DNA of 64,000 nt. Source: Microbispora bryophytorum. Its GTDB lineage: Bacteria; Actinomycetota; Actinomycetes; Streptosporangiales; Streptosporangiaceae. Both the position numbers and the translations under genes were made by a program. The stretch spans positions 1-64,000 of the forward strand of contig NZ_VIRL01000015.1 of the NCBI RefSeq assembly GCF_006874465.1, in the 5' to 3' direction. Under the pieces are notes generated by a model that saw only the letters and a program-made list of their open reading frames with translations, did no database searches and was not told the DNA's origin. This document shows positions 14,688-47,100 of this stretch, one piece after another. Numbering within the stretch: the stretch's first letter is position 1; each line of letters opens with the position of its first letter.

Positions 14688-14688
14688 G

Positions 14689-22692: not shown

Positions 22693-22723
22693 TGAGGTCG
22701 ATCCCTTCGATAGGCGGCCGATG

Positions 22724-24669: not shown

Positions 24670-24672
24670 CGC

Positions 24673-30373: not shown

Positions 30374-30425
30374 AGAGGAGACGACCAGGGCAGGTGGGTG
30401 GGGCGCCCGCGGGCGGAGGGCAGGG

Positions 30426-30464
30426 GTGTTGCGACACGGTGTTGCGACACGGTGTTGCGACACG
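30426..30464. repeat. Three perfect tandem copies of a 13-bp unit
   Basis: GTGTTGCGACACG occurs three times head to tail, followed by a partial fourth copy (GTGT). Each unit contains the dyad GTGT-TGCG-ACAC. It lies in the 132-base gap upstream of a glycosyltransferase gene, 41 bases before its ATG. Confidence 0.9.
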
Positions 30465-30505
30465 GTGTGGCGAGGTCGGCGGAACGACGGACGGGGAGCG
30501 ACGCG

Positions 30506-31459: not shown

Positions 31460-31729
31460 CTCTGCCGCGGGCACGCCGCAACGGAAAAGCCGAAATCTAG
31501 AAAGTTACTGTCCGTAATAAGGTACAAATCATGTCAATGTGTCCATTGAGGCGATCAGTGCTTAAATAGCGATAGATCGCGGGATTGCCTTCTCCTCCAC
31601 CATCAGGCCGGACGCCGTCTGAGGCAACACGATCGTTTGAGCGAGGTGTATCGAGAGGAGGTCCAGTGGGCGAAACCCCTGGGCACCGCGCGTGACGACG
31701 GTCCGGAATTCGCCGAGTCTGGGGTTTCG
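31460..31729 (+). promoter_or_regulatory. AT-richer leader before the XRE/NB-ARC regulator gene
   Basis: This 270-base gap has an AT-rich block (about 31490-31580, including TAATAAGG and TTAAATAGC) that stands out from the local base composition and marks the border between the glycan locus and the biosynthetic cluster. A small dyad GCGAT-ag-ATCGC lies at 31569-31580. No gene is convincing here. Confidence 0.4.
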
Positions 31730-33226
31730 ATGGAGAACGCGTCGTTTGGGGTCGCACTCCGGAATCTACGCAGGGAACGTGGCCTGTCCCTGGCATCCCT
31801 GTCGGCGTTGACCCATTACAGCAAGGGCTACTTGAGCAGGATCGAGACGGGCGAACGCCCGCCGACGCCGCTGGTGGCCAGGCGCTGCGACGAGGTGCTC
31901 CGGGCCGAGGGCGCGCTTGCCGGGCTCGTTCCCGCGCGACATCGGCATCACGGACGTTTCCTTCGTCCGGCGCAGCTTCCGGCGGCCCCGCGCGCCTTCG
32001 CCGGCCGCTCGGCCGCGCTCGCCGAGATCGAGGACGCTCAGCTGGGCCATCAGGTGGTGATCGTCTCCGGCCCCGCCGGTGTGGGCAAGACGGCGACGGC
32101 GCTGCACTGGTCCCATCGCGCCGCCCGCCGGTTCCCCGACGGATGCCTGTTCGTGGACCTGCGCGGCTTCGACCCGACCGGCACTCCGGCCGAACCGGCC
32201 GACGTGCTCGCCCGGTTCCTCCATGATCTCGGGTGCTCCCCCGCGTCCATACCGGCCGGCCTGGAGCCGCGCTCCGTCCTGCTGCGCACCCTTCTGGACG
32301 GCAGACGTACGCTGATCGTCGTCGACAACGCGGCCACGTCCGGCCAGGTACGTCCGCTGATCCCCGGCTCGGCCGGATGCCGGCTGGTGGTGACCAGCCG
32401 GAGCCGGCTGTCCGGCCTGGTCGCCAGGGACGGCGCCGCGCGCGTCGTGCTCGCGCCGCTGCCGGAGCACGAGGCGCTGGACCAGCTCGGCCGTGCCATC
32501 GGCGGCCGGCGCGTCGTGGAGGAGCCCAAGGCCGCGGCGGAGATCGCCAGGAGGTGCGGCTATCTTCCGCTGGCGCTGCGGATCGCGGCGGAACGGGCGC
32601 AGGCACGTCCGTCGCTGCGGCTGACGACTCTCGCCGCCGAGCTCGCGGCCACCCGCGGGATGCTGGACCTGCTGGCCACCACCGAAGACGAGGCGACCAC
32701 CCTCCGTTCGGTGTTCTCCTGGTCCTACCGCACGCTCGATCCGGACACCGCTCGCATGTTCCGGCTGCTCGGCCTGCATCGCGGAGGCGAACTCGGTGTT
32801 CCAGCGGCCGCCGCGCTGGCCGGGATCGGCCACCGGCACGCGCGGCGTCTGCTCGACGCGCTGGCCGCCGTCCACCTGCTGGAGGAGACCGGCGGCGCGC
32901 GATACCGCTTCCACGACCTGGTCCGGCTGTACGCCGCCGACTGCGCCGAGGCCGACGAATCGCCCGAGGACCGGTCCGCCGCGGTGCGCCGGCTGGTCAC
33001 GTGGTATCTGCACGCCGCCGCCGGCGGGCGGCCGGCGGCGTCCGCCGGTTGTGACGACGCTCCCGGCTGGTCCGACGCCGAGTGCGGGCGTCCGGCCGCG
33101 GCCCATGACGACCTGGACGATCTCGACCAGGCGCTGGGATGCTGCGAACAGGCCCTGGCGATCCTGCGGCGCGTCGGCGACCGGGCGGCCGAGTGTGCCT
33201 GCCCGAACCACCCGGACGGCAACTGA
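31730..33226 (+). CDS. XRE-type HTH / NB-ARC transcriptional regulator, shortened
   Basis: 498 residues. An N-terminal Xre helix-turn-helix (LRNLRRERGLSLASLSALTHYSKGYLSRIETG) is followed by an NB-ARC ATPase: P-loop VSGPAGVGKTATAL, Walker B LIVVDNA, the TSRSRLSGL sensor and YLPLALRIAAE. The winged-helix part (YRFHDLVRLYAADCA) is present, but the usual long TPR array is reduced to one motif (ALGCCEQALAILRRVGDRAAE) before an abrupt Cys-rich end. Full-length relatives are typically much longer. ATG 31730 is chosen because the HTH begins just after it; a TTG at 31637 is less likely. It probably regulates the adjacent cluster. Confidence 0.8.
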   Translation: MENASFGVALRNLRRERGLSLASLSALTHYSKGYLSRIETGERPPTPLVARRCDEVLRAEGALAGLVPARHRHHGRFLRPAQLPAAPRAFAGRSAALAEIEDAQLGHQVVIVSGPAGVGKTATALHWSHRAARRFPDGCLFVDLRGFDPTGTPAEPADVLARFLHDLGCSPASIPAGLEPRSVLLRTLLDGRRTLIVVDNAATSGQVRPLIPGSAGCRLVVTSRSRLSGLVARDGAARVVLAPLPEHEALDQLGRAIGGRRVVEEPKAAAEIARRCGYLPLALRIAAERAQARPSLRLTTLAAELAATRGMLDLLATTEDEATTLRSVFSWSYRTLDPDTARMFRLLGLHRGGELGVPAAAALAGIGHRHARRLLDALAAVHLLEETGGARYRFHDLVRLYAADCAEADESPEDRSAAVRRLVTWYLHAAAGGRPAASAGCDDAPGWSDAECGRPAAAHDDLDDLDQALGCCEQALAILRRVGDRAAECACPNHPDGN

Positions 33227-33267: not shown

Positions 33268-34035
33268 TCAGGCGTTCCTCCTGGCGAAGAGGCGGGCGCC
33301 GAGCGCCAGGCAGCACGCGGCGGTGGCGAGGGCGACCCCGGCGCCCGCCACGACGACCGAGCTGCCGTAGTCGCCGTACAGGGCGGTACGCATGCCGTCG
33401 ATGACGTAACGGAACGGAGTGAGCCGGGAGAGGATGTCGAGCCATTGGGGCGCGAGCGTCATCGGGAGCAGGATCCCGGACAGGAGCAGCAGCGGGATGG
33501 CCGCCGCGTTGAGCAGGGGGGTGAACGACTCCTCGTTGCGCACGAGCAGGCCGAGCCCGTGGGACAGGGCCGACAGCCCGACCGCGATGGCCGCGACGAA
33601 CAGGAACATCAGGAGAAGGCCGAGGGCGGGAGCGCGCAGGCCGAACGCGTACGCCACGGCGAGCAGGACCGCCGTCTGGACGAGCAGGACCACGGTGTCC
33701 CTCATGACCCGGCCGGCGAGCAGGGCGAACCGGCTCACCGGGGTGACGCGCATCCGCTCGAACACACCCGATCGCAGGTCGGCGATGATGGACAGGCCCG
33801 CGAACAAGGGCCCGAACAGGCCGAGCTGGATCAGCAGGCCGGGCACGAAGAAGCGCCATGCCGCCCCGGCCGGCAGGCCGTCGACTCCCGCACCGGCCAC
33901 CCTGACCAGGAGCGGGCCGAGGAACGCCAGGTAGAGCGCCGGCTGGAACAGGCCGATGACCGGCCACGCCGGGGAGCGCAGCGACAGCCGCATCTGTCGC
34001 GCGAAGATCAGCAGGCTCGCAGGGATGAGGGACAC
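33268..34035 (-). CDS. ABC-2 type transporter permease (DrrB-like)
   Basis: 255 residues, six predicted transmembrane helices in the ABC-2 pattern (for example LLIQLGLFGPLFAGLSIIADL, ALGLLLMFLFVAAIAVGLSAL). The conserved SGVFERMRVTPVSRFALLAGR loop is the hallmark of DrrB/NodJ-like permeases. With the upstream ATPase it forms a daunorubicin-resistance-type exporter, probably for the cluster product. It is the last gene of the leftward arm. Confidence 0.88.
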   Translation of the reverse strand: MSLIPASLLIFARQMRLSLRSPAWPVIGLFQPALYLAFLGPLLVRVAGAGVDGLPAGAAWRFFVPGLLIQLGLFGPLFAGLSIIADLRSGVFERMRVTPVSRFALLAGRVMRDTVVLLVQTAVLLAVAYAFGLRAPALGLLLMFLFVAAIAVGLSALSHGLGLLVRNEESFTPLLNAAAIPLLLLSGILLPMTLAPQWLDILSRLTPFRYVIDGMRTALYGDYGSSVVVAGAGVALATAACCLALGARLFARRNA

Positions 34036-34075: not shown

Positions 34076-35053
34076 TCACGAATGGTTCTCGCTGAGCGAG
34101 GACCCGGTCAGGGCAAGGAAGACGTCGTCCAGCGTCGGCCGGGCGATGTTGACGGATCGCAGGTCGAGGTCCGCCTGGTCCGCCGCCCGCAGCAGCCAGA
34201 CGAGCGCCTTCTCGCCACCGCGCGCCGTGAGCCGGACGGTCTGCCCGGACACGGCGATCTCGTCCAGACCGGGGCACTCGGCGAGCACCGCCTTCGCCCG
34301 GTCGGCGTCGCCGCCCAGGGTCAGGCTGATCACATCGCCGGAGATCCGGCGTTTGAGAGCGTCGGGGGTGCCCTCCGCGATGATCCGCCCGTGGTTCATC
34401 ACCAGGATCCGGTCGCAGAGCGTGTCGGCCTCGTCGAGATAGTGCGTGCTGAGGAAGACCGTCGTGTCGAAGTCGTCCCGCAGCCGGCGGATGTGCGTCC
34501 ACAGGTCGCTGCGGCTCTGCGGGTCCAGGCCGACGGACGGCTCGTCCAGGAAGACCAGCGGCGGCTGGTGGACGAGCCCGAGGGCGATGTCGGTGCGCCG
34601 CCGCTGCCCGCCCGACAGCGTCCTGATCGGCCGGTCCGCGAGCCCGGTCAGATCGAGGCGCTCGCACAGGTCGGCGGCACGGCGCACCGCGTCCTGCTTC
34701 GCGATGCCGTACAGCCGCGCCTGCAGGATCAGCTCCTCGGCCACCCGGCAGTTGCCGTCGGTGCCGCCGGACTGCGCCACGTAGCCGATGCGCCGGCGGA
34801 CGGCGCCGGGGTCGGTGTTCACGTCGGCGCCGACGACGACGGCCCGGCCCGCGCTGGGTTTGAGCAGCGTGGTGAGGATGCGCAGCGTCGTGGTCTTCCC
34901 GGCGCCGTTCGGCCCCAGGAACCCGATGATCTCGCCGGGACGCACCTCGAAGTCGACGCCCCGGACCGCCTCGACCTGCTGGCGGCCGACCCTGAACGTA
35001 CGGGTCAGCCCGGTGGCCTGGATGATGGGCACGGCCGCTCCCGATGTGCTCAT
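34076..35053 (-). CDS. ABC transporter ATP-binding protein (DrrA-like)
   Basis: 325 residues: Walker A GFLGPNGAGKTTTLRIL, Q-loop VAQSGGTDGN, ABC signature LSGGQRRRTDIALG, Walker B LVFLDEPSVGLDP, H-switch LSTHYLDEAD. The C-terminal extension (ISGDVISLTL...SVNIARPTLDDVFLALTG) is that of DrrA drug-export ATPases. It pairs with the permease 40 bases downstream and overlaps acpS by 4 bases, placing export and self-resistance in the biosynthetic operon. Confidence 0.92.
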   Translation of the reverse strand: MSTSGAAVPIIQATGLTRTFRVGRQQVEAVRGVDFEVRPGEIIGFLGPNGAGKTTTLRILTTLLKPSAGRAVVVGADVNTDPGAVRRRIGYVAQSGGTDGNCRVAEELILQARLYGIAKQDAVRRAADLCERLDLTGLADRPIRTLSGGQRRRTDIALGLVHQPPLVFLDEPSVGLDPQSRSDLWTHIRRLRDDFDTTVFLSTHYLDEADTLCDRILVMNHGRIIAEGTPDALKRRISGDVISLTLGGDADRAKAVLAECPGLDEIAVSGQTVRLTARGGEKALVWLLRAADQADLDLRSVNIARPTLDDVFLALTGSSLSENHS

Positions 35054-35424
35054 GACCAGCCCGCCGCCACCGCGACGACCAGATCGCCCTTGTGTGTTAT
35101 CGAGACGTCGAGATGCCGCACGCCGGCGGCGTCGGCGGCCGTCCGGGCGGCGCCGAGCAGCGTGACCTCGGGGGCTCCGGAGGAGGCGCGGGCGACCACG
35201 ATCTCGCGTGGCGCCACGCCCTGGAACAATCCCATCCGGAACGCCTTGAGCACGGCCTCCTTGGCGGCGAACCGGCCGGCCAGGAACTCTACGGCGCGCG
35301 CGTCCGACAGACTCTCGGCCTCCGAGAGTTCCGCCGGGGCGAAGGCGTAGCCGTCGAACCAGCGGCGCGCACGCAGCCGCTCCAGCTCGCCGACGGACAT
35401 CAGGTCGACACCGACACGCATCAC
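35050..35424 (-). CDS. acpS: Holo-[acyl-carrier-protein] synthase (AcpS-type phosphopantetheinyl transferase)
   Basis: 124 residues, the AcpS size. The metal-binding Asp in MMRVGVDLMSVGEL, the RFAAKEAVLKA motif and the final SITHKGDLVVAVA strand are intact. It transfers phosphopantetheine to carrier proteins. Placement inside the operon, coupled to the dehydrogenase and DrrA by 4-base overlaps, suggests a dedicated role with the discrete ACP of this cluster and perhaps the PKS ACPs. Confidence 0.9.
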   Translation of the reverse strand: MMRVGVDLMSVGELERLRARRWFDGYAFAPAELSEAESLSDARAVEFLAGRFAAKEAVLKAFRMGLFQGVAPREIVVARASSGAPEVTLLGAARTAADAAGVRHLDVSITHKGDLVVAVAAGWS

Positions 35425-36671
35425 ATCACCCCTTCGACGGCACGTCCGGGACGGGCGTCCCGGTCTCGCGGCGTGAAATAGTCATCCCTCAACAGCCCCT
35501 GGAAGACGCCACGGCGGTGGATGTTCCCGGTGCCCTCCATGAACTCGAACGCGCGTACGTCCCGGTAGAGCTTGTCCAGCCACGGATGCTCGACCAGCGA
35601 CGCCGGGCCGAGCAGCCGGGCGGCGAGCATCGTGGCGTCCTCCGCGAGGTGCGCGGCGCGCATCTTGACGCCGCTGACCCGGAACGTGTTGGGCGAACCG
35701 GCGTCGATCTCCGCCGCGACCTCGTGAAGGAGGCGGCGCAACCGGCGTATCCGGTCGGCCAGGGCGTCGATCCGGGCGCGGTCGGCGCCGGCGAGCGCGG
35801 GGCGCTGCTCCAGCACGTAGTCGCAGGCCGCCCGCCCGGCACCCAGGGCGAACGCGGCCACACTCGGCCGGAACCACAGCATGGCCTGGAGCGCGCCCTG
35901 CAGCCCGCGCCGGCTGCGTGGCCGGTCCCGGCCGAGTATCCGCTCGGGCGGGATGTACATGCCGTCGAACCGCAACCGGCTGATCCGCGCGCCGCGCAAC
36001 CCGATGATCGGGAGCGTCTCGGCGTGGAAGCCGGGATCGCCGGTGTCCACCATGACGGCCTCGATTCCCCACGGTCCCGGGGCCCGCCGGCAGAACACCA
36101 CTCCGGCCCGCGCGTGCGCGCCGTTGCCGATGTACATCTTCTCGCCGGTCAGCACCCAGCCGTCGCCGCCGGGGGCGGCGTCGAGGCGGGTCGTGAGCTC
36201 GGTCGCCGCCGAGCCCTTCTCTGGTTCGGTCAGCGCGAAGAAGGCCCACGAGGGCCAGTCGGCGGTCTTGGTGAAGAACCAGTCGCGCTGCGCCTCGTCG
36301 GCCAGGGCCCGCAGGACCGCGGTCGACAGGGCCGGACCCGGGCTGGCCAGCGTCATGCCCGGGTCGCCGTAGGCGAGCCACTCCGCCGCGAGTATCCACT
36401 CCGCGCACGAGGCCTCGGCGGGCACGAAGGACGGCAGGAGATCCCCGCCCCCGGCGTACCGGGCCGGGGTGAGCATGTGCTGCTGGACGCGCACCGCGGG
36501 CAGGTGCAGGAACCGGGAGACGGCGTCCGGATCGGCGTCGAGCTCCTCGCCCGGTCCGCGCAGATCCCGCGCGGCCTCCCGGAGGAAGTGTTCGAGCTCG
36601 CCCGCCCGCCCGCCGTACGTGTCCGGGTGGTACGCCGAGGCCGTCCGGCCGGAGTCAGACATCGCCGTCAC
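35421..36671 (-). CDS. Acyl-CoA dehydrogenase family flavoprotein
   Basis: 416 residues. All three ACAD parts are visible: N-terminal helices, the central beta domain with FALTEPEKGSAATELTTRL and WVLTGEKMYIGNGAHA, and the C-terminal helices ending in FEFMEGTGNIHRRGVF, which keeps the catalytic-base Glu of the YEGT motif. Homologues that oxidise aminoacyl groups on carrier proteins are known (prolyl-PCP dehydrogenases such as RedW/PigA). Given the ACP, ligase and decarboxylase upstream, I infer it desaturates an ACP-bound acyl or aminoacyl group. Start is GTG 36671 or ATG 36662; both overlap the upstream gene. Confidence 0.88.
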   Translation of the reverse strand: MTAMSDSGRTASAYHPDTYGGRAGELEHFLREAARDLRGPGEELDADPDAVSRFLHLPAVRVQQHMLTPARYAGGGDLLPSFVPAEASCAEWILAAEWLAYGDPGMTLASPGPALSTAVLRALADEAQRDWFFTKTADWPSWAFFALTEPEKGSAATELTTRLDAAPGGDGWVLTGEKMYIGNGAHARAGVVFCRRAPGPWGIEAVMVDTGDPGFHAETLPIIGLRGARISRLRFDGMYIPPERILGRDRPRSRRGLQGALQAMLWFRPSVAAFALGAGRAACDYVLEQRPALAGADRARIDALADRIRRLRRLLHEVAAEIDAGSPNTFRVSGVKMRAAHLAEDATMLAARLLGPASLVEHPWLDKLYRDVRAFEFMEGTGNIHRRGVFQGLLRDDYFTPRDRDARPGRAVEGVM

Positions 36672-37272
36672 CCGCCTCGGGCTGGAGGTAGACGTTCCCC
36701 GTCACCTCGGCCAGGTACAGATCGACGCCGGGTCCCTCGGCGAGCATGCTGTAGCCACCGAGGAGGCGGAGCAGGACCCGCCCCGCGCGGGTCAGGCGCA
36801 GGTGGCGAGCCCAGCGGACGTCGCGGCCCGTCTCCTCCGCCGGTTCCGCCGCCGCCTCCTGCAGCTCCATCGCGACATCGGCCAGGTCGGCCTGGAGCTG
36901 AGGCCGCGTCAGCAGGCTGGTGCCCTCGCTGGCCCGCTCGCCCAGGCGTGCGATCGTGTGCGTCAGCGTCCGGTGGACGACCTCGCGCTGCAGGGTGAGC
37001 AGCCCCTCGGCGAACCGGCCGGCCGTCACGTCGTCCCGGGCGCTGCCGCCGGGTGCGGGCACACACGCGAGCCCGAAGCGGGTGAACCTCCGCGTCCCGT
37101 CCCCGCCGAGCGCCCGCGCCGACGCGAGGACGCGTCCGGAGGGCGAGGCGACGAAACGACCGGACGCCACGTCGGCGTGCAGGGCGTCGAGCAGGGCCGG
37201 ATAGTCTCCGAACCCACCGGTCGTCGATGCGCCTGTGGTCAGTGCGCCTGTGGTCAAAGCGCCTGTCGTCAT
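36655..37272 (-). CDS. Acyl-CoA dehydrogenase C-terminal-domain-like protein, no flavin domain
   Basis: 205 residues, mostly helical. Its C-terminal part (VLLRLLGGYSMLAEGPGVDLYLAEVTG) resembles the last helices of acyl-CoA dehydrogenases, but the N-terminal and beta domains that hold FAD are absent. It lies next to a complete acyl-CoA dehydrogenase and overlaps it, so it may be a partner subunit. The N-terminus is a triple TTGA(L/S) repeat encoded by 15-bp tandem copies. ATG 37272 overlaps the upstream stop (ATGA). Assignment to the ACAD fold is by pattern only. Confidence 0.6.
   Translation of the reverse strand: MTTGALTTGALTTGASTTGGFGDYPALLDALHADVASGRFVASPSGRVLASARALGGDGTRRFTRFGLACVPAPGGSARDDVTAGRFAEGLLTLQREVVHRTLTHTIARLGERASEGTSLLTRPQLQADLADVAMELQEAAAEPAEETGRDVRWARHLRLTRAGRVLLRLLGGYSMLAEGPGVDLYLAEVTGNVYLQPEAGDGDV
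37229..37272 (-). repeat. Three 15-bp in-frame tandem units at the N-terminus of the ACAD-like protein gene
   Basis: Units beginning at 37229, 37244 and 37259 (GCGCCTGTGGTC + 3 bases; the third differs by one base) encode repeated TTGA(L/S) at the very start of the protein. The copy number could vary without breaking the frame. Confidence 0.85.
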
Positions 37273-38135
37273 GGGTGCCCTCCCCGCCTGTTTCCGGCGG
37301 CGACGGCACGCTCGCGACGGGTGAACGTCGCCACGTGGCCGGCGCCGGTGCGCGGATCGACATCGCCGAACACGATCGTCCGGTAGGCGTCGCGCCACTC
37401 CTCGTGGTGCCTGGCGAACTCCAGCCAGACACCGGTGCAGTAGGAGCCGGGAGGCGCCTGGTGGGCCTTCGGCCCGGCCGGCCCCAGGTCGAGGGAGTCA
37501 CCCCACGAGCCGGTCACCACCAGCCGGTCGCCGGGCCGCTCGTCGCCCGGCAGTCCCGGCGGCTTGTCGAGCAGGGCGGCGAGGTCGCAGTGCGGGCCCG
37601 AGGAGCCGACCCCGGCCAGCTCCCAGCCGCCGGCGGGTCCGAGCGCCAGCAGCACCGCCGAGTCCACCAGGTCGCCGTCCTGGACGAACGGCTCCGGATA
37701 GGGGAACGACGTCTGTTCGAGGATCAGCAGGACAACGCTGCGGCAGCGGCCGGAGCGCAGGTAGGCGTCGGCGATCCGCAGTGCCGTGAACGGGGCGCCG
37801 AGTCCCTGCTCGGAGACCGCGAAACTCAGGGGACGGCCGTCGAACACGCGGGTGAGGTGCGCCGCCAGGGTCTTCTCCGGCGCGTGCGGGTCGGGCAGCG
37901 CGTAGGCGACGATCAGCAGGTCCGGGGCGGGCAGCGGGCCGGGGGCCTCCCGCAGCACCCCCTCCGCGAGTTCGAGGAAGGTGGTGTTGCTCCCGCCCGC
38001 CGCGTACGACGGATCGAACCGCATCCCGTACGGCGCGAGCACGCCCTGGTTGAACTCGAGGATGTCGGGTTCGAAGTGGCACGGACGGGCGGCCCGCGGC
38101 ACGTAGGCGACCGCGGTCTCCAGTGACAGGGACAT
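37269..38135 (-). CDS. KAS III-like (thiolase-fold) protein lacking the catalytic cysteine
   Basis: 288 residues, shorter than FabH. The N-terminal half follows the thiolase fold, with IVAYALPDPH and SFAVSEQGLGAPFTALRIADAYL. Aligned to the KAS III of this operon (AFAVTQQNCASGLAAVDIA), the nucleophile Cys is Leu112, and the HNxN and second His/Asn motifs are missing. It cannot be a normal condensing enzyme. Pairs of active and inactive KAS III-like subunits (PqsC/PqsB) are known to form heterodimers, which suggests it partners the product of 41155-42102. Overlap with the next gene is 4 bases. Confidence 0.75.
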   Translation of the reverse strand: MSLSLETAVAYVPRAARPCHFEPDILEFNQGVLAPYGMRFDPSYAAGGSNTTFLELAEGVLREAPGPLPAPDLLIVAYALPDPHAPEKTLAAHLTRVFDGRPLSFAVSEQGLGAPFTALRIADAYLRSGRCRSVVLLILEQTSFPYPEPFVQDGDLVDSAVLLALGPAGGWELAGVGSSGPHCDLAALLDKPPGLPGDERPGDRLVVTGSWGDSLDLGPAGPKAHQAPPGSYCTGVWLEFARHHEEWRDAYRTIVFGDVDPRTGAGHVATFTRRERAVAAGNRRGGHP

Positions 38136-38144
38136 GACCGTGCG

Positions 38145-38417
38145 TCAGCCCGCGTTGCCGGTGGCGACCAGGTCCACGAGCCCCTGAAGGTAGTCGACCA
38201 GGGTGCCGACGGTCCGGAAGCTGTCCATGTCCAGGCCCTCGGGGTCGATCTCGACGTCCATCGTGTCCTCTACGGCCATGAGCAGTTCGAGGATCGACGT
38301 GGAGTCCAGCTGGAGGTCGTCGAACAGCCGGGTGTCCTCCGTAACGCCGGGGATCTCCCGCTGGAGGACCTCGCCGATGGACCGGACGACGGCTGCGACG
38401 ATCTCGGATCGGGTCAT
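38145..38417 (-). CDS. Discrete acyl carrier protein
   Basis: 90 residues. The phosphopantetheine serine is S39 in DLQLDSTSILELL, with an acidic helix II as usual for ACPs. The LQLDSTSILELL pattern is like that of BtrI, the ACP used in butirosin side-chain assembly. It sits between the KAS-like and decarboxylase genes, 9 and 31 bases from its neighbours, and is the probable carrier for the amino acid activated by the ATP-grasp ligase. Confidence 0.93.
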   Translation of the reverse strand: MTRSEIVAAVVRSIGEVLQREIPGVTEDTRLFDDLQLDSTSILELLMAVEDTMDVEIDPEGLDMDSFRTVGTLVDYLQGLVDLVATGNAG

Positions 38418-38448
38418 TGCCGGGTTTCCCTTCTCACTGTGGGACTGA

Positions 38449-39759
38449 TCACTGTGGAGCTGTCTCTGCGGTGCCCGTCTCCGGGCCGCCGGCCGCCGTA
38501 GTCGGTGGGTCGACGAGGATCTGCCGGCCCAGCAGGTCCTCCACGGTGTCGCGGTGCCGGACGAGGTGTGCGGTGGCGCGAGAGACGAGGACCTCGGCGG
38601 GATAGCCGTGGCTGAGGAACAGCACCGGTGACGAGGTGGGTCCGTAGGCGCCCGAGCGTTCGACGCCGATCAGGTCGCCCGGCCGCACCTCGGGCAGGGC
38701 CACCTTGCGGCCGAGCACGTCGTCGGGGGTGCACAGCGGCCCGGTGACGGTGTACCGGCGGTCGGCGAGCGCGTCGTGGTGGTCGATCGACCGGATGGGG
38801 AAGTTGCGCTTGACGAAGCTGCCCACCCCGACGGCGGCCATGTGGTGGTTCATCCCGCCGTCGGTGACGACGAACCACTCCCCCTTGGACTGCTTCACGT
38901 ACCGGGCCCGGACGACGTACGTGCCGCAGCGGCCCGCGAGGTACCGGCCGAGTTCCATGATCACCCGGCAGCCCGGGTGCTCGGCCGCGAATTCCGCGAC
39001 GACCGCGTTGACCCCCTCGGTCAACTGGTCGAGATCGAGATCCTTCTCGTTCTCGAAGTACGCGATGCCGAGGCCTCCGCCGATGTCGACGGTCTCGAGC
39101 GGGAAACCGAGCTCGGCGCTCAGCTCGCGCGCGGCGGCGAGAATGCCGGCGGTGTTCTGGACGATGCCGTCCGGGTCGAGGATGCGGGTGCCCATGTACG
39201 CGTGTATCCCGATGACGCGTACGTTGCGCAGGGCGCGCAGCGCCGCCCCGCTTCGCAGCAGCAGCTCGTGGTCGATGCCGAACTGCCGGGGCTTGCCGCC
39301 CATGGACAGCCGGGCGCCCTTGGTGCTGAACGCCGGGTTCACCCGCAGCAGGGCCCGGGTCCCCGGGCGGCTGATCCGGTCGAGCGCGGCCAGCTCGTCG
39401 AGCGACTCGCAGACGACGGCCGCGATCCCGTACTCCAGGCAGGCCCGCAGTTCCTCCTCGGACTTGCCCGGCCCGAGGAAGATGACGTCGGACGGCTGCG
39501 CCCCGGCCCAGCGCGCCGTGGCGAGCTCCGCCAGGGAGGACACCTCGAGGCCGGCGCCGAGCGACCGCATGACGGCGCAGACGCTGACGTTCGGGTTGGC
39601 CTTCGCCGAGTAGAAGACGTCGACGGCCGGATGGAGGCGGCGCCGGAGCGCGGTGTAGGTCTCGGCCAGCACCTCGGCGTCGTAGACGTACAGGGGGGTG
39701 CCGAACCGATCGGCGAGATCCGCGACCGGGATGCCCTGGACTGCGTACGCGTCGGTCAT
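38449..39759 (-). CDS. Fold-type III PLP-dependent decarboxylase (BtrK/LysA-like)
   Basis: 436 residues, alanine-racemase-like barrel plus beta domain. PLP lysine is K53 (FYSAKANPN), phosphate loop is D225-IGGGLG, ELGRYLAG provides the conserved Glu/Arg, and C343 in GPLCTPDDVLG is the active-site Cys given to the partner subunit. VTDGGMNHHMAA is the form seen in BtrK-type enzymes that decarboxylate ACP-bound glutamate. The gene overlaps the ATP-grasp ligase by 4 bases and lies beside the ACP, so decarboxylation of a carrier-bound amino acid is the best inference. A free diamino acid substrate is the alternative. Confidence 0.88.
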   Translation of the reverse strand: MTDAYAVQGIPVADLADRFGTPLYVYDAEVLAETYTALRRRLHPAVDVFYSAKANPNVSVCAVMRSLGAGLEVSSLAELATARWAGAQPSDVIFLGPGKSEEELRACLEYGIAAVVCESLDELAALDRISRPGTRALLRVNPAFSTKGARLSMGGKPRQFGIDHELLLRSGAALRALRNVRVIGIHAYMGTRILDPDGIVQNTAGILAAARELSAELGFPLETVDIGGGLGIAYFENEKDLDLDQLTEGVNAVVAEFAAEHPGCRVIMELGRYLAGRCGTYVVRARYVKQSKGEWFVVTDGGMNHHMAAVGVGSFVKRNFPIRSIDHHDALADRRYTVTGPLCTPDDVLGRKVALPEVRPGDLIGVERSGAYGPTSSPVLFLSHGYPAEVLVSRATAHLVRHRDTVEDLLGRQILVDPPTTAAGGPETGTAETAPQ

Positions 39760-41141
39760 GAGCCCTCCCTGGGCTGTAGCACACCGGACAGGGCGGCCCG
39801 AGCGGCTTCGTCGAGCGCCGCCAGCCGGTCGTGGTCGGGAGCGGTGAGCAGGGTGTAGAGCCGGCCCTGATACGGCGGGCCGTCGCCGGTCCCGGCGTTG
39901 GCGGTCCCGGCGTTGACGGTGCCGAAACAGGTGACGACGACCCGGCCGCCCGGCGCCGGGGACAGCAGCGGGCCGAGGACCCGGCGCAGGTCGTCGAAGA
40001 CGATCGGCGCCGCGGTCCGCACCGGATAGTGCCGGGCCAGGGCGACGTGACCCGGCTGATGGAACAGCTCGGTCATGCCGCCCTGGTAGGTCGACATGTT
40101 GAGCCTGGCATTGATCTCCAGGACGGGGTGGACCCGTTCGTCTTCCGCGACGATCGCGTCGATGCCCGCCACCCCGAAGAACCCGTCGGCGGCCAGCCGG
40201 CCGCCGATCTCCGCGGCGGCGCGGCGCAGCAGCGCGTGCTGGTCCGCGCCGAGATCGGGAGGCATGAGATGCCCCTGGTGGACGCCGCGCTCGGTCAACG
40301 CCTGCTTGACGAAGTCGAACCGCACGTCGCCGCGCCGGTCGACGGTGATCTGGTAGTTCAGGTCGGCGCGCTTGGGGATCCAGCGCTCGACCACCACCGC
40401 GAGCCGGTCGTCACCGGTGCGGGCCGCGCGCCGCTCCACGATGCGCAGCAGCCGGTCGGCCTTGGCCGGGGTGTCGAGCACGACCAGGCCCTTGCCGGAG
40501 ACTCCGTAGGCGTCCTTGACCACCACCGCCCCCGGGGCGCCGGCGGCCTCGGCGAGCGCGTGCCGCAGCTCGCCGAGCGACTCGCAGCACCATCCGGGCA
40601 CGGCGGGCAGCCCGAGCTCCTCGGTGATCCTGCGGCTGTAGATCTTGCTGTTGACCCGCTCGAACGTCGTCGCGTCCGGCACGGCCAGCGGCACCTGGGC
40701 GGAGACCGCCAGTTTCTCCTCGGACTCCGAGGTCCCCATCGGCATGAGCCGTGCCCCCCGCCGGCCGAGAAGGCTCAGCCGGTCGAGCGCGCGCGGCGAG
40801 TTCAGCAGGTCCTCCGCGGTCGGCCTGTCCTCGGTGGTCGTCTCCGGCACGAGCACCGCCGGGAGGCCGACCCCGAGATCCTCCTCCAGGTAGCGGAGGT
40901 AGCCCTCGTCCGGCGCGTGTTTGACGACGAGGACGTCGCCGGGCCCGGCGAGCAGGATGCCGAGCTCCTCCATCCGCTGGACGATCGCCGTGGGCGTCGC
41001 CGCGGGCGCCGGCAGGCCGACATGGTGCCGGGCCCACTGGGCCTCCACCTCGAAGTTGCACAGGAACGCCAGAGGCGTGGCCGGGTCCCCGGTCAGCGCG
41101 GTCTTCAGCCGCCGGAGGTAGTCCGTGCTCTCGCGTGTCAC
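39756..41141 (-). CDS. ATP-grasp ligase, probable amino acid:ACP ligase (BtrJ-like)
   Basis: 461 residues. The ATP-grasp core has K209 and the glycine loop (VVVKDAYGVSGKGLVVLD), a VVVERWIPKRADLNYQITVD segment and metal ligands in PVLEINARLNMS. An N-terminal ~150-residue domain precedes it, as in peptide/carrier ligases of the BtrJ type. BtrJ loads glutamate on its ACP and later adds a second gamma-glutamyl cap. Adjacent ACP and decarboxylase make the same first step likely here. Which amino acid is used cannot be read from the sequence. Its start lies 13 bases after the KAS III stop. Confidence 0.85.
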   Translation of the reverse strand: MTRESTDYLRRLKTALTGDPATPLAFLCNFEVEAQWARHHVGLPAPAATPTAIVQRMEELGILLAGPGDVLVVKHAPDEGYLRYLEEDLGVGLPAVLVPETTTEDRPTAEDLLNSPRALDRLSLLGRRGARLMPMGTSESEEKLAVSAQVPLAVPDATTFERVNSKIYSRRITEELGLPAVPGWCCESLGELRHALAEAAGAPGAVVVKDAYGVSGKGLVVLDTPAKADRLLRIVERRAARTGDDRLAVVVERWIPKRADLNYQITVDRRGDVRFDFVKQALTERGVHQGHLMPPDLGADQHALLRRAAAEIGGRLAADGFFGVAGIDAIVAEDERVHPVLEINARLNMSTYQGGMTELFHQPGHVALARHYPVRTAAPIVFDDLRRVLGPLLSPAPGGRVVVTCFGTVNAGTANAGTGDGPPYQGRLYTLLTAPDHDRLAALDEAARAALSGVLQPREGS

Positions 41142-41154
41142 AGCGTGTTCCCTC

Positions 41155-42102
41155 CTATCCGCCGATCACCATCGCGGCGTACGTCGCACCCAGGCCGACG
41201 GCGGCGAGCAGGTACACGCCGTCGTCGCGCAGCCGGCCCTCGTCACGCATGCTGGCGAGATTGATGAACGGATCCGATCCGAAACAATGGCCATATCGGG
41301 GCACGTTGTCGAGATATATTCGCTCGACCCCGAAACCCAGCTCCCGAATCACGCCCCGCCACGACGAGTTGTTCACGTTGTGCGGCACGATCATTGTTAT
41401 TTCCTGCGGGCTCAGGCCCGCCTCGTGAACGGCCTGGCGAATGATCTCGACGACGGCCGGCGTGTAGGAGGTGAAGAATTCCGCGAGCACGTCGGGTTGC
41501 GGGCGGTACAACTGCGCGTATTCGCCGCGGGTCCGCACCGCGTACGACCGGATGCGCCGGCCGGCGCCCGCCACGCCGACCAGGCAGGCGGCCGACCCCT
41601 CCCCCATCACCGTCGTGTTGGGAATCACCGAGAAAATCCGCGACGACGCCTTCTCCCCGGTCACGACGAGGGCGCGCCCGTCGGTGTCTCCGTCCGCCAG
41701 CAGCAGTTGCACCGCGATGTCGACGGCGGCCAGCCCGCTGGCGCAGTTCTGCTGCGTGACCGCGAACGCCTCGGCCCTGGGCAGGTCCAGCCTGCGGCAC
41801 AGCTCCTGCGCCGTGCTGACGTGCGCGGGCGCGACGTCCGGGGCGGTGTGCGCGTAGACCAGGTAGCGGATCCGGTCGCGGTCGGCCGCGGTGGGGACGA
41901 GTGCCCGTGCCGGCGCGACGAGCAGATCGATGAGGTCGAGGTCCGGATCCATGGGCAGCCGTGCCAGACCGTGGACGCGCTGGAACACCCGTAGCTGGTG
42001 CCGGTTGATCCCGAGCCGGTCGGCCACCTCCTCGATGGCGACCGACCGGCTCGGGACGAAACCCTGCACCGCCTCTATGGCCGGGACGGGGGCGGTGGGC
42101 AT
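41155..42102 (-). CDS. 3-oxoacyl-[ACP] synthase III family protein (KAS III), catalytic Cys present
   Basis: 315 residues. Active-site C120 lies in VTQQNCASGLAA and H241 in VPHNVNNSSW; the FabH Asn position carries His (RYGHCFGSD), so the triad is C-H-H rather than C-H-N. It should condense or transfer an acyl group onto a carrier protein. ATG 42102 is preferred because GGAGG lies 8 bases upstream; GTG 42117 overlaps that site. It is the first gene of the leftward arm and divergent from the condensation protein. Its inactive relative is encoded four genes downstream. Confidence 0.87.
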   Translation of the reverse strand: MPTAPVPAIEAVQGFVPSRSVAIEEVADRLGINRHQLRVFQRVHGLARLPMDPDLDLIDLLVAPARALVPTAADRDRIRYLVYAHTAPDVAPAHVSTAQELCRRLDLPRAEAFAVTQQNCASGLAAVDIAVQLLLADGDTDGRALVVTGEKASSRIFSVIPNTTVMGEGSAACLVGVAGAGRRIRSYAVRTRGEYAQLYRPQPDVLAEFFTSYTPAVVEIIRQAVHEAGLSPQEITMIVPHNVNNSSWRGVIRELGFGVERIYLDNVPRYGHCFGSDPFINLASMRDEGRLRDDGVYLLAAVGLGATYAAMVIGG

Positions 42103-42313
42103 GAAACGCGCCTCCACTGCTCACGTGATCGAAACGATGCACACGCTAGGCCCGACCACCCCCGGAGCAATATTGGGGTTTTCCCTACCGTTGCCCGCCG
42201 GACGGCGGGACGGGAGATGTAGGGGTTTCCCCAATAGGCCTCCGATCCGCCGGATAAATACTCTCCGCATGAAATTCGTCGAACGCCCGGGTGCTGAGTG
42301 CTCAGGAGGCGGC
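42103..42313. promoter_or_regulatory. Divergent promoter of the cluster, with nested inverted repeats
   Basis: Two 17-base elements, TATTGGGGTTTTCCCTA (42171-42187) and TAGGGGTTTCCCCAATA (42220-42236), are inverted copies of one another at 13 of 17 positions, and each is itself a small GGGG/CCC dyad. Between them is CCCGCC-ggac-GGCGGG (42194-42209). The arrangement sits midway between the two arms, so one regulator could control both. AGGAGG (42304-42309) serves the condensation gene. Confidence 0.6.
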
Positions 42314-44107
42314 ATGGGTGACCTGACTTTCACCGAACGCATGCTTGTTAAATACGCCGGAGAACGCGCGGTGGAGGCGCCGTTGACACTCGGGCAGATC
42401 AACACCCTCGAATGGCTCGGCGACGACACGCGGGCCGGGCTGTACCGGATGATGGAGTGGGCCGTCACGGTGCCGGACGGAACCACGCTGGACGACGTGG
42501 CCGAGACGCTCGCCGTCCTGGTCGAGCGCCACGAGTCGCTGCGGACGTCCTGCGTCACCGGCGATTCGGCACGCCAGCGCGTGTCGGGCTCGGGCCAGGT
42601 GGCCGTCGACGTGTACGAGACCGCGGCCGGCGCCGGCTCGCCCATCGACCCGGTTGAGGTCACCGATCTCATCTCGGCGCTCCAGGCCAGGCCCGTGGAC
42701 GACGTGGGGGATCCGATGCTCCGCGCGGCGGTCGCCGTGCGCGACGGCGCCATCCGGCTGGTCCTCATCGCGTGCAGCCACCTGGCGGTCGACTGCGAGA
42801 GCCTGGCCGTAGTCGTCCGGCAGTTCAACTGGTTGATCCGCCATCCCGCCGAGCGCCGCGCCGGGCCGCTCACGCACCAGCCCGTCGACCAGGCGGCCGC
42901 CGAGCACTCCCCACGCGGCCGGCGCCGCGCCGAGGCGTCGCTCCGATACTGGGGGCAGCACATGTCGCGGATGCCGCAGAGCGTGTACGCGATGCCCCGG
43001 CCGACCGGCGGCGGCGAACGCGAGGTGCGCCACGACTACGCGGTGCCGGGCGCCGCCTCCGGCGAGGGTGACCCGCTCGGCTGCTGGCTCGACTCGCCCG
43101 CGCTGCGGCTCGCGCTGCCGCACATCGCGGCGCGCACCCAGACCACCCTGCCCATGGTGCTGTCGGCCGCCTTCTGCGCGGTGCTCGCCTGGCGCACCGG
43201 CAGCACGGACCTGGTCTTCGCCTCGCTGGCGAACAACCGGATCGGCCGGAACCTGCACGACTACGTCGGCACCCTGGCGCAGGACACCCTGCTCGCGGTC
43301 GACGCCGGCACGACCAGCTTCGACGAGCTGATCCGGCGGGCGGGCAGCGGGACGCTCCGGGCGGCCATGCACGGGCTGTACGACGTCAAGCTGCTCCAGA
43401 GCCTGCAGTCCGAGATAGGCGACCGCCGCGGCGTGCTGTTCCAGCGGGACTGCGCCTGCAACATCAATCTCTTCGACTTCGACGGCGAGACCCGGCCGGC
43501 CGGTCCGCCGGAGGCGGCGCGGGACGCGCTCGCCCGGACCGCCCTCCGCTGGCACGTGCCGCCGTACTTCCGGGTGCTGCTCCTGCTGCGGGTCATCGAC
43601 TCCGACGGCGAGCCGCTGCTCGGCCTCACCACCGGCCACGCCGATCTGGTGCCCGCGGCCGAGATCGAGTCGCTGCTGCTCGGGATCGACCGGCTGCTGG
43701 CCGCGGCCGCCACCGGGGACGTGGATCTGCGCCGGATGACCGAGATCACCGGGCTGACACCGGTCACCCGCGGCCCGGAGTGGCAGCGGGTGGACGGCTG
43801 CTGGATCGAGTTGCCGGAGGTGCAGCGACTGGTCGACGACGCCGTCCGGGTCCCGGCCCGGGTGATCGCCGTCCCGGACGACGACGGCCGCCCCGTCCTG
43901 ACCGCCTACATCACCGCCGGCGGCCCCGTCCGGACGCCGCGGGAGGCCCATGACGCCTGCATGAGCCTGCTGACGGGCCGGTACACCGCGATGGCTCCCG
44001 GCCGGTACGTGATCTGTGCCGGGCCGCCCGGCGATCCGGACGACCCGGCGGCCTGGCGCCGCAGACCCGTCCTCGCCGAAGGCGACGGCCGGGAGGAGCA
44101 GCGGTGA
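42314..44107 (+). CDS. Free-standing NRPS-type condensation-domain protein with a remnant adenylation C-terminal subdomain
   Basis: 597 residues. Residues ~20-480 fit a condensation domain: [12 protein letters not shown] start, [11 protein letters not shown], and SHLAVDC (155-161), where the HHxxxDG catalytic motif keeps its second His (H156) and Asp but has lost the first His and the Gly. The last ~90 residues ([22 protein letters not shown]...[16 protein letters not shown]) resemble the small C-terminal subdomain of adenylation domains without its catalytic Lys region. It is therefore a stand-alone amide- or ester-forming or releasing enzyme. AGGAGG at 42304 sets the start. The stop overlaps the PKS GTG start by 4 bases. 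Confidence 0.82.
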
Positions 44108-47100
44108 GCCACGCCGAACCGATCGCCGTGCTCGGCCTGGCCTGCAGGCTTCCCCAGGCGCCCGACCCGGACGGATTCTGGCGGCTGCTGCGGTCGGGCA
44201 CGGACGCGATCACCGATCCGCCTCCCGGCCGGCCGGAGGCCGCACCGGGACACCGGCGAGGCGGGTTCCTCGAAGGGATCGACGAGTTCGACGCCGAGTT
44301 CTTCGGGATCCCGCCGATCGAGGCCGCCGCCATGGACCCGCAGCATCGGCTCATGCTGGAGCTCGCCTGGGAGTCGCTGGAGAACGCCCGGATCGCGCCG
44401 ACCTCGATCAAGGATCACCCGGTCGGCGTGTTCGTCGGCACGATGTCCGGCGACTACGACACGGTGCTTCACCGCAACGGGCCGTCCGGGATCACCCACC
44501 ACACCCTGACCGGCTCCAACCGCGGCGTCATCGCCAACCGGATCTCCCATCACCTCGGCCTGCGCGGGCCGAGCTTCGCCGTGGACAGCGGCCAGTGCTC
44601 GTCGCTGCTGGCCGTCCACCTCGCCTGCGAGAGCCTGCGCGACGGGGAGGCGGAGCTGGCGATCGTGGGCGGGGTCAACCTGACCATCGTGCCCGAGAGC
44701 ACGGTCGGCGCGGAGCGGTTCGGCGCGCTGTCGCCCGACGGCCGCTGCTTCACCTTCGACTCCCGTGCCAACGGGTACGTGCGCGGCGAAGGCGCCGCGG
44801 CCGTAGTCCTCAAGCCGCTGCGCCTCGCCGAGGCCGACGGGGACCGCGTCCACTGCGTGATCCTCGGCAGCGCCGTGAACCACGACGGGAGCGCCGGCGC
44901 TCTCACCGTCCCGAACCGCGAGGCGCAGGAGCGGGTGATCGAGCTCGCGACGCGCCGCGCGGGCGTCGGCCGGACCGAGGTCCAGTACGTCGAGTTGCAC
45001 GGCACCGGCACCCGGGTCGGCGATCCGATCGAGGCGGCCGCGCTCGGCGCGGCCCTGGGGACGGGGCGGCCGGACGGCGACCGGCTGGCGGTCGGCTCGG
45101 CCAAGACCAACGTCGGGCACCTGGAAGGCGCGGCCGGAATCGTGGGGTTGCTCAAGGTGGCCCTCAGCCTCGCGCACCGGGAGCTCCCGCCGAGCCTCAA
45201 CTTCGTCACGCCGAATCCCGCGATCCCGCTGGAGCGGCTGGGCCTGCGGGTCCAGACCGGGCTGTCCCCCTGGCCGAAGCCCGACCGGCCGCTGGTGGCG
45301 GGCGTCTCCGCGTTCGGCATGGGCGGCACCAACTGCCACGTCGTGCTGGGCGAGGCTCCGGCACGGCGTCCGGCGCGGCGTGCGGCGCGGCGTCCGGCGC
45401 GGCGTCCGGCGCGGCGTCCGGCGGCACGCGCCGCCGCCGACGGCCTGCTCCTGCCGTGGGTGCTGTCGGCGAGGACCGGGCAGGCCCTGCGCGCCCAGGC
45501 CGGACGGCTCATGGAGTTGGCCGAGGCCGACCCGCGGCTCCTGCCGATGGACGTCGGGCGCTCGCTCGCCGTGACGCGGGCGCCCCTGCGGGAGCGCGCC
45601 GTCATCCTGGGCGCCGACCCCGCGGAGTTCCTGACCGGCCTCGCGGCGGCGGCGCAGGGCGCACCGGCCGGGAATCTCCTCCGCGGGGACGCCGGCGAGG
45701 AGGCCGGGCTGGTCCTCGTGTTCCCTGGGACGGCACCCGGCGACGTCCTCGACCGGCTCACCGCGCCGGGCGGTTCGATGGACTCGGCCACACCCCTCGG
45801 GCGGATGTTCCGCCGCCACCTGGACGAGTGCGCCGAGGCGCTCGCGCGGCTCACCGGCCGCTCGCCCCTCGACGTGTCGCGGAGCGCGCCCGGAGCGCCC
45901 CGCTCCGAGACGCCGGAGGCCGCCCGGTCCGCGTCGTGGGCCGTCGCGGTGGCGTTCGCCGCGACGCTGCGGTCGTTCGGCGTCCGGCCCGACGCGGTCG
46001 TCGGCCACCTCGACGGAGAGATCGCGGCCGCCTGCGCGGCCGGTCTGCTGAGCCTCGACGAGGGCGCCGAGCTGATCGCCGGCGGCGCGGATCGCGGACG
46101 TGGCACGCCCTCCCCGGCCCTGCCCGGCGACGGCGCGATTCCCTGCCACTCGACGCGTACGGCCGGCCTGCTCGACCGGGCCGCCGTCGGCTCCGCACCC
46201 GCGGACGCCCCCGATCGGCTCGGTCCACTCGTCGGCGCCCTGGTCCGCGAGGGACACCGGGTCTTCATCGAGGTCGCGGCGGAACCCCTGCTGAGCGGCG
46301 CGATACAGGCCGCACTCGACGCGTCCCGCGAGAGCGGGGCGGACGGCAGCACGGACGGCAGCGCGGTCCTCACCGCCGGGCCCGACCGCGCCGGTGTGCT
46401 GCGCTCGATGGCCCTGGCCCACGTCCACGGGGCGGACGTCGACTGGTCCGCCGTCTTCGCGGACGAGGCGGCCCTGGTCGACCTGCCGACCTACGCCTTC
46501 CAGCGCACGTCGCACTGGATCGCGCCGGCCGCCGCCGGGGCGACCGGCCCCGGCCACTCCCCGGCCGCGGCCACGCCGCCGGCCGGCGACGCCGGCGCGT
46601 GGAGGCACATGATGTCCGGCCTGCCGGAGGCGGAACGGCGCGAAACGGCGATCGCGCTGGTACGCGCGCAGGTCGCCGGCGTTCTCGGCCACTCGGCGCC
46701 GGAGGCCGTCGCCGTGCGGCACACCTTCGGCGACCTCGGCCTCGACTCCGTCACCGGCGTCGAGCTGAGCCACCGCCTGAGCGCCGCGACCGGGCTGCGC
46801 CTGCCGGAGACGCTGATCTTCGACCATCCCACGCCGATCGCGCTCGCCGAGCACCTGGCCGAGCATTCGGCCGGGCATCTGACCGGGCCTTCGGCCGGGC
46901 TGACGCCGCACGCCGCGGCCGAGGCCGGCGAGCCGATCGCCGTAGTGGCGATGGCCTGCCGGTTCCCCGGCGGCGTACGCTCGCCGGAGGATCTGTGGCG
47001 GCTGGTGGAGTCCGGCGTCTGCGCCGTCTCCGGTGTGCCCGCCGACCGTGACTGGCAGATCCCAGCCGTCGGCGGCTTCCTGGCGGACGCGGCCGGCTTC

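Follow-up and report, generated by a model that had tools for sequence, protein, structure and literature searches.

A probable dehydro-beta-alanine (enamide) cassette with a short polyketide cap in Microbispora bryophytorum

What does an actinomycete assemble with an operon in which an amino acid ligase, a decarboxylase and a discrete acyl carrier protein (ACP) are set among ketosynthase-like and flavin enzymes? This question is raised by a stretch of 64,000 nucleotides of Microbispora bryophytorum (assembly GCF_006874465.1, contig NZ_VIRL01000015.1, positions 1 to 64,000), hereafter the window, in which an earlier interpretation made from the letters alone (the sequence-only reading) placed a butirosin-like pathway of ACP-tethered amino acids at 35050..42102. 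We propose that the operon is a cassette for dehydro-beta-alanine (Dba), an enamide, in which aspartate is loaded on the ACP and the resulting unit is capped by a short polyketide. The probability that we give to this reading is about 0.75.

Gene order and recurrence of the cassette

The genes form a run on the minus strand, from 42117 to 35050, which in order of transcription encodes: a 3-ketoacyl-ACP synthase III (KAS III) homologue, an ATP-grasp ligase, a pyridoxal phosphate (PLP) decarboxylase, the ACP, a KAS-like protein, a partial homologue of acyl-CoA dehydrogenases (half-ACAD), an acyl-CoA dehydrogenase (ACAD) and AcpS. A DrrA/DrrB-like ABC pair comes next. Several starts and stops overlap and the remaining gaps are below 40 bp (AcpS/ACAD -4 bp, ACAD/half-ACAD -17, half-ACAD/KAS-like -4, KAS-like/ACP +9, ACP/decarboxylase +31, decarboxylase/ATP-grasp -4, ATP-grasp/KAS III +13). 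The sequence-only reading had described the ATP-grasp, decarboxylase and ACP genes as adjoining and coupled, and had set them among a KAS III, a Cys-less KAS-like protein, an ACAD, an ACAD-like partner and an AcpS; both descriptions are confirmed by the gene content, with all the genes at the expected positions of the minus strand. Its range contains these genes and is not the complete cluster, to which a condensation-domain (C-domain) protein and a polyketide synthase (PKS) at 42.3-56.5 kb also belong. The members are as follows (KS, ketosynthase, KSQ being its loading variant; AT, acyltransferase; KR, ketoreductase; DH, dehydratase; TE, thioesterase):

41155..42117, minus strand: KAS III homologue with Cys125, His246, His277 and Asp282; proposed amide-forming N-acyl transferase (PF08541)
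39756..41141, minus strand: PreATP-grasp/ATP-grasp ligase; proposed aspartate:ACP ligase (PF18604)
38449..39759, minus strand: fold-III PLP decarboxylase, BtrK-like; proposed to convert aspartyl-ACP to beta-alanyl-ACP (ornithine/diaminopimelate (DAP)/arginine decarboxylase Pfams)
38145..38417, minus strand: discrete ACP, proposed amino acid carrier (PF00550; Ser in 36/36 rows)
37269..38135, minus strand: Cys-less KAS III-like protein, proposed KAS III partner (model, fold match)
36655..37272, minus strand: half-ACAD partner with a predicted fold like the helical C-domain of ACADs, without the FAD domain (model, Foldseek)
35421..36671, minus strand: ACAD-family flavoenzyme with a catalytic-type Glu379; proposed N-acyl-beta-alanyl-ACP desaturase (PF02770, PF00441)
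35050..35424, minus strand: AcpS-type phosphopantetheinyl transferase (PF01648)
42314..44107, plus strand: stand-alone C-domain protein with a C-terminal extension of ~200 residues; proposed final transfer or release (PF00668 on a slightly longer reading; start inferred)
44104..56457, plus strand: triketide PKS, KSQ-AT(degenerate)-ACP / KS-AT-KR-ACP / KS-AT(degenerate)-DH-KR-ACP, without TE; proposed acyl donor

The recurrence of this arrangement was scored in 39 loci, 38 around ATP-grasp matches and one on a plasmid of Streptomyces decoyicus (L084), all selected through the ATP-grasp gene and ordered with profiles built from the loci themselves. The series KAS III/ATP-grasp/PLP decarboxylase/ACP/KAS-like/half-ACAD/ACAD is found in 26 of the 39. 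It was scored in full in 24, to which L043 and L061 are added; in these two, frame midpoints alone misorder the ACP and KAS-like genes and the match coordinates give the usual order. The other 13 loci are cut off, rearranged or without the desaturase pair. Since the order recurs among these loci, the cassette is not a chance arrangement. The ATP-grasp gene itself is present in 23 of 297 genomes of the family (E <= 1e-40; the window's own and five other Microbispora included), in 6 of 394 genomes of the class (own included) and on 18 named contigs, three of them from Microbispora and the others from Streptomyces, Kitasatospora, Saccharothrix, Kibdelosporangium, Dactylosporangium, Micromonospora and Telmatospirillum. 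The copies share 85-95% identity in the five other Microbispora and 41-67% elsewhere. On the S. decoyicus linear plasmid (NZ_CP108348.1), the core cassette has as neighbours a large non-ribosomal peptide synthetase (NRPS) and genes for an MMPL transporter, a TauD-like protein and a protein with an asparagine synthase domain.

The loaded amino acid

The best match of the decarboxylase among solved structures is BtrK, with 308 bits against 171 for the best DAP decarboxylase, which supports the earlier claim that an ACP-tethered amino acid is decarboxylated by a BtrK-like enzyme. In a tree, 35 cassette rows and BtrK are separate from the 17 further fold-III decarboxylases that were drawn from eight genomes and that presumably include LysA, and the lysA model TIGR01048 gives the window protein 294.7 bits, just below its cut-off of 297.9. 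LysA is thus the more distant of the two and BtrK the closer, the exact place of BtrK in the tree being weak; the grouping with LysA that would have told against the sequence-only reading was not observed. As judged from sequence, the likeness to BtrK is indicative of the type of reaction and not of the substrate.

For the substrate, aspartate is favoured over glutamate by the relatives of the cassette, namely by the name of one ATP-grasp relative and by the loaders of two other loci. The first, P0105, has in UniRef a name that starts with 'Aspartic acid-holo car' and is 57% identical to the ATP-grasp of the window and 73-79% to those of five enteromycin-type loci. The second line of evidence comes from L120, a locus of 19.9 kb which has together a decarboxylase 55% identical to that of the window, an ACP, a KAS III, a KAS-like protein, a half-ACAD and an ACAD, and which gave no ATP-grasp match. 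The solved structures closest to its adenylating enzyme are 3wvn and 3wv4 (379 and 311 bits, against 220 for the next), which we take to be VinN, a beta-methylaspartate ligase. The same type of enzyme (374 bits; next other protein 213) adjoins a KAS III, a KAS-like protein and a piece of an ACAD on the contig piece L113. The VinN residues Asp230, Ser299 and Arg331, named in PMC7756342 (this and the other reports cited below are referred to for their available portions), have as their counterparts Asp, Thr and Arg in the enzymes of L120 and L113, with a numbering offset of 16 derived by hand. In the window no VinN-type adenylating enzyme is found, the ATP-grasp gene being there instead.

These data bear directly on a butirosin-like route, in which glutamate would be loaded and decarboxylated to 4-aminobutyryl-ACP, to be then processed or transferred. 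BtrK is indeed the nearest solved structure and a neighbour in the tree at 83/65, and BtrJ is likewise an ATP-grasp loader. Nonetheless, the same type of decarboxylase occurs with a VinN-like loader in L120, the name of P0105 points to aspartate, an alpha,beta-desaturating ACAD suits the published route through N-acyl-beta-alanyl intermediates, and no oxygenase Pfam, including that of the BtrO-type flavin monooxygenases, was found among the cluster genes scanned, in agreement with the sequence-only reading, which had seen no BtrO. We thus regard glutamate and aminobutyrate as very unlikely: what stands of the butirosin comparison is the decarboxylase, and the rest of that system does not.

Amide formation, desaturation and the acyl donor

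The KAS III homologue could extend a chain or transfer an acyl group, and its residues argue for the latter. In an alignment of 38 rows, the Cys is kept in 37/37 rows that reach its position and the His in 36/37, while the position of the FabH Asn is occupied by His in 38/38 rows and the Asp five residues further (Asp282) is invariant. The loss of the FabH Asn makes acyl transfer likelier than chain extension. The sequence-only reading had allowed for an extension of the aminoacyl-ACP; in such a route a C-C bond would be formed with malonyl, and the ACAD and the KAS-like protein would process the beta-keto product to a polyketide or alkaloid. The KAS III C-terminal Pfam domain is present and a PKS adjoins, but the Asn-to-His replacement speaks against it, as do the absence of a Pfam match to a ketoreductase or dehydratase in the minus-strand operon, the KSQ with which the PKS begins and the case of AFC-BC11, where acyl groups are carried or transferred by a KAS III-like enzyme that has Cys/His/Asp (PMC12186527). 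Extension is therefore kept only as a highly improbable rival. That KAS III would form the amide is a proposal, less firm than loading, decarboxylation and desaturation; given that N-acylation in AFC-BC11 is by a fatty acyl-AMP ligase, this role rests on the proposals made for bolagladin and olenamidonin.

The KAS-like protein has no Pfam match, and its model (pLDDT 86.5) shows a predicted fold of the KAS III type, with OleA/FabH matches at E ~3e-11. At the FabH-type Cys position a Gly is found in 34/34 rows, this position being set by a weak alignment (2ebd, E 0.79); another Cys, C233, is present in 30/34. Its gene occurs in 23/23 of the family genomes with the ATP-grasp (out of 297) and in six more, in which a KAS III lies within the same locus. 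KAS III and the KAS-like protein look like a separate unit, because the pair shares a locus also outside the ATP-grasp genomes. In L113-L118 and L121 the two genes likewise share a locus in which neither the ATP-grasp nor the PLP decarboxylase gave a match, often with C-domain matches (L113 and L115 are short contigs, and 7 kb separate the pair in L117); these may represent a wider, unexplained enzyme pair.

Regarding desaturation, which the sequence-only reading had considered possible and which is here judged likely, the ACAD has the catalytic-type Glu in 28/29 rows. The half-ACAD, whose start is probably 37272 and not 37398, has no Pfam match; its model has a pLDDT of 85.7 and its Foldseek matches are ACADs. 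Both genes are present in 29 of the 39 loci and neither in 10, with no locus having one alone, and because of this co-occurrence the half-ACAD is regarded as the partner of the ACAD. It is found in 21/297 family genomes, including 19 of the 23 with the ATP-grasp. Four of the loci without the pair (L044, L056, L058 and L068) end at a contig edge; L056 is a piece from the genome G186, where both ACAD genes are on another contig (L124). In L042, L051, L057 and L060, which keep the KAS-like protein and lack the desaturase pair, the end unit may be a saturated beta-alanine.

The sequence-only reading left out the neighbouring PKS, which is likely the acyl donor. This protein of 4117 residues is encoded divergently from the operon, and its start is overlapped by the C-domain gene (42314-44107/44104). 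The active-site motif of KS1 is DSGQCSS in the window and in G010, and DSGQSSS in four of the five relatives examined; the Gln in place of the catalytic Cys identifies KS1 as a KSQ loading domain, the mark of priming by malonyl decarboxylation. Each copy of the PKS, in the window and in five relatives (that of G186 being partial), has one GHSxG and one HAFHS, the latter being the motif of malonyl-type ATs. GHSxG is missing from two of the three ATs of the window (AT1 reads GHLDG and AT3 GVGSG) and likewise in the five relatives, as far as the motif scan reaches. KR and DH motifs are present and there is no TE Pfam match, so that a chain deduced from domain order would be (E)-5-hydroxyhex-2-enoyl, from three malonyl units. 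The KAS III would be the natural off-loader of this chain and the C-domain protein, with the motif SHLAVDC, the natural last enzyme.

Two further explanations concern the direction in which the PKS and the operon are connected. Similarly made beta-aminoacyl starters feed the PKSs of vicenistatin and fluvirucin (PMC7756342, PMC12186527), and in the same way the Dba unit could be the starter of the PKS instead of the acceptor of its chain. The KSQ makes this unlikely, the active-site Gln of KS1 being shared by the window and five relatives, and the core is also found beside neighbours other than PKSs. Alternatively, the stand-alone C-domain protein could make the amide on the beta-alanyl nitrogen, with the KAS III and KAS-like proteins shuttling or releasing the acyl unit as AfcL does. 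This is suggested by the overlap of its gene with the PKS start, by C-domain matches near KAS III/KAS-like in several loci without a PLP match and by AFC-BC11, where AfcA N-acylates and AfcL acts at release; we consider it doubtful, since in the eight loci of the methyltransferase family described below a C-domain match is found in 0/8 (within the stretch read) and a KAS III in 8/8.

The neighbours of the other cassettes were grouped in families by BLAST clustering over 38 loci, with one or two members per family scanned with Pfam, and on sequence evidence the core likely adjoins at least three kinds of probable acyl supplier. The first is an enteromycin-type set with an AurF-family diiron protein in 7/38 loci and an LCM-type methyltransferase in 8/38 (L039, L040, L041, L043, L044, L051, L057 and L060, with shorter stretches in L041 and L044), the members scanned being from L040 and L051 only. 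In L057 there are in addition an asparagine synthase and a protein whose nearest match is an amino acid:[ACP] ligase (112.8 bits against a cut-off of 357) and whose relative in L060 gave no Pfam match. Enteromycin contains an NH-CH=CH-COOH unit. Streptomyces achromogenes, named as a producer in the enteromycin context (PMC11035981), has a KAS III 80-86% identical to those of five enteromycin-type loci, a match at the level of species. The second set includes a fatty-acyl-AMP-ligase-like family in 13/38 loci, among which is the AurF-type L051; it also has additional ACADs and an ACP, often with a MatE transporter (9/38 loci). The third is the PKS type, found in 6/38 loci (five Microbispora and G186). 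No AurF-type diiron oxygenase or nitronate methyltransferase was found among the cluster genes scanned in the Microbispora window. The Microbispora genome G004 has two cassettes, L038 and L059 (its second locus), one of PKS type and the other with extra ACADs and an AMP-ligase-family gene.

From gene content, gene order, co-occurrence, predicted folds, motifs and nearest solved relatives we infer every catalytic step, the aspartate substrate, the triketide and the last step of the following route. AcpS would prime the discrete ACP (step 1), the ATP-grasp enzyme would couple the side-chain carboxylate of L-aspartate to it (step 2), and the BtrK-type enzyme would remove the alpha-carboxylate to give beta-alanyl-ACP (step 3). 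The PKS would build the acyl chain from malonyl units, as (E)-5-hydroxyhex-2-enoyl (step 4), which KAS III, through Cys125 and probably with its Cys-less partner, would transfer to the amine of beta-alanyl-ACP to form the amide (step 5). The ACAD and half-ACAD would then desaturate it to N-acyl-dehydro-beta-alanyl-ACP, i.e., N-(5-hydroxyhex-2-enoyl)-Dba-ACP (step 6). Finally, the C-domain protein might pass the unit to an amine or alcohol, or close or dimerise it through the chain hydroxyl (step 7), and the ABC pair would export the product (step 8). Steps 2, 3 and 6 are the firmest, step 5 is less so and step 7 the least.

Several points weigh against this reading. The grouping of BtrK with the cassette rows is weak and on a long branch and, because BtrK acts on glutamyl-ACP, the kinship leaves the substrate unfixed. 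With respect to the loaders, Ser299 of VinN is a Thr in L120 and L113; the genome of L120 (G027, 90% complete and 7% contaminated) has an ATP-grasp copy on a separate 6.3-kb contig, so the swap of loader holds for the locus and not for the genome; and the AMP-binding enzyme of L119, a locus without ATP-grasp, is nearer to an NRPS domain (297 bits) than to VinN (230). The fold match of the half-ACAD to ACADs is weak (best E 1.2e-3), and the pair is missing from L042, L047 (where the PLP and KAS-like matches are fragmented), L051, L057, L060 and L073 despite the relevant flank, three of them (L051, L057 and L060) being of the enteromycin (AurF) type. The AT of the KSQ module is degenerate, which makes the loading of that module less certain, and the C-domain protein could itself form the amide. 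In the literature, N-acylation by a KAS III homologue is a proposal for bolagladin, whose two KAS III homologues both lack the Cys (PMC7756342), whereas the KAS III of the window keeps it and the KAS-like protein has Gly; in AFC-BC11 the fatty acyl-AMP ligase AfcA N-acylates and the KAS III-like AfcL acts at release (PMC12186527).

A broader view, less likely than not when its parts are taken jointly, is that of a portable enamide machine. In it, a KAS III and a Cys-less KAS pseudo-enzyme would make a C-N bond between two carrier-bound groups, the ACAD/half-ACAD pair would desaturate on the carrier, acyl groups would come from at least three kinds of supplier, and the loaders (ATP-grasp or VinN-type) would be exchangeable. 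In Microbispora, the triketide to be capped would come from a KSQ PKS whose three modules have a single working AT among them, and the C-domain protein would close or dimerise the hydroxyhexenoyl-Dba unit to a small enamide lactone or diolide, so far undescribed.

The conserved block also contains exporter and regulator genes:

31637..33226, plus strand: HTH/NB-ARC regulator, edge of the conserved block (Pfam; adjoins the ABC genes in five other Microbispora)
33268..34035, minus strand: ABC-2 permease, DrrB-like exporter (Pfam/NCBIfam)
34076..35053, minus strand: ABC ATPase, DrrA-like exporter (TIGR01188, 313.3 bits, cut-off 312.45)
56460..57671, minus strand: LuxR-type regulator (PF00196; kept in four other Microbispora)
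57943..60819, plus strand: large AAA/LuxR regulator (PF13191, PF00196; kept in four other Microbispora)

Four other Microbispora genomes (G001, G004, G010 and G011) have the block that begins with the regulator at 31.6 kb and ends with the large LuxR at 60.8 kb; the G010 regulator is divided between two of the stretches fetched. In G009, a fifth genome whose contig was read as L036 and L082, the parts present are the regulator, the ABC pair, the core, the C-domain protein and the beginning of the PKS. The frame of the first regulator, with a start from a simple caller, has 529 amino acids against 746-782 in three other Microbispora. A heptose-like sugar block at 22012-31459 (SDR, PfkB/cytidylyltransferase of HldE type, SIS, GT2, carbamoyltransferase, HAD phosphatase and GT4) was rejected as part of the cluster: it lies beside it in the closest relative, G010, and was not found in G001, G011, G004 and G009, in each of which ~12.9 to 16.9 kb were read beyond the regulator. 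The stretch 11333-19947 of the window holds a GMC oxidoreductase, an aldehyde dehydrogenase, a MerR regulator and an FMN-dependent dehydrogenase.

Relation to known systems

Butirosin is made with glutamate, gamma-glutamyl protection and hydroxylation. Its BtrI/BtrJ/BtrK system shares with the window a BtrK-like decarboxylase acting on an ACP-bound amino acid, and is not known to include a KAS III or an ACAD. The sequence-only reading did not recognise a described pathway in the combination of genes; however, bolagladin and AFC-BC11 follow the same logic. For bolagladin, from Burkholderia gladioli, the proposal is that Dba arises from aspartate through BolO/BolC/BolN, that BolM or BolP acylates the nitrogen and that BolQ desaturates; deletion of bolQ gives the beta-alanine analogue, and deletion of bolN abolishes bolagladin, with no rescue by beta-alanine (PMC7756342). 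It has in common with the window the ACP, the BtrK-like decarboxylase, two KAS III homologues and an acyl-CoA-dehydrogenase desaturase (the ACAD is likened to BolQ by description). The differences are a VinN-type ligase in place of ATP-grasp, a citrate-primed fatty acyl in place of the triketide, an NRPS downstream in place of the C-domain protein, and the half-ACAD of the window, unmentioned in the available portion of that report.

AFC-BC11, from the Burkholderia cepacia complex (AfcQ/K/P/A/L/O/R/E), provides in vitro evidence for aspartate loading and carrier-bound decarboxylation, with AfcP acting on Asp-loaded AfcK; its KAS III-like enzymes have Cys/His/Asp, and AfcL bears acyl groups and, in the release step, couples Lys (PMC12186527). 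The window resembles it in the proposed loading of aspartate and decarboxylation while carrier-bound, in the KAS III-like enzymes and in a BolQ-like dehydrogenase. AFC-BC11 differs in its adenylating enzyme, in its Dba trimer formed by iteration, in the fatty acyl-AMP ligase that carries out the N-acylation and in the release with Lys at which a KAS III-like enzyme is placed. Autucedine, olenamidonin and enamidonin also contain a Dba residue, in a cyclic lipopeptide unlike the product proposed here, and for olenamidonin a 3-oxoacyl-ACP synthase (AutS/OleH) is proposed to join acyl-CoA and Dba-ACP (PMC11204786). The enteromycin-type loci have the same core, ATP-grasp included (56-58% identity for L039, L040 and L043), and differ in the acyl donor, which is a nitronate derived from glycine (AurF, methyltransferase) where the window has a PKS; some also lack the ACAD and half-ACAD.

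Enamide (Dba) units are rare, the enamidonins being the sole other case known to the authors of the bolagladin report (PMC7756342). No description of an ATP-grasp version of the Dba route was found in the literature searched, whose coverage leaves out most subscription journals. The cassette can serve to mine genomes in several genera of actinomycetes and in at least one proteobacterium, and it predicts acyl donor, loader and desaturase genes. With a few small proteins, it brings into reach the possible formation of an amide by KAS III homologues between two carrier proteins and the roles of the Cys-less KAS and the half-ACAD. Compared with the systems above, the Dba logic itself is already known, and what appears to be new in the Microbispora cluster is the ATP-grasp loading, the half-ACAD and the triketide PKS as acyl donor.

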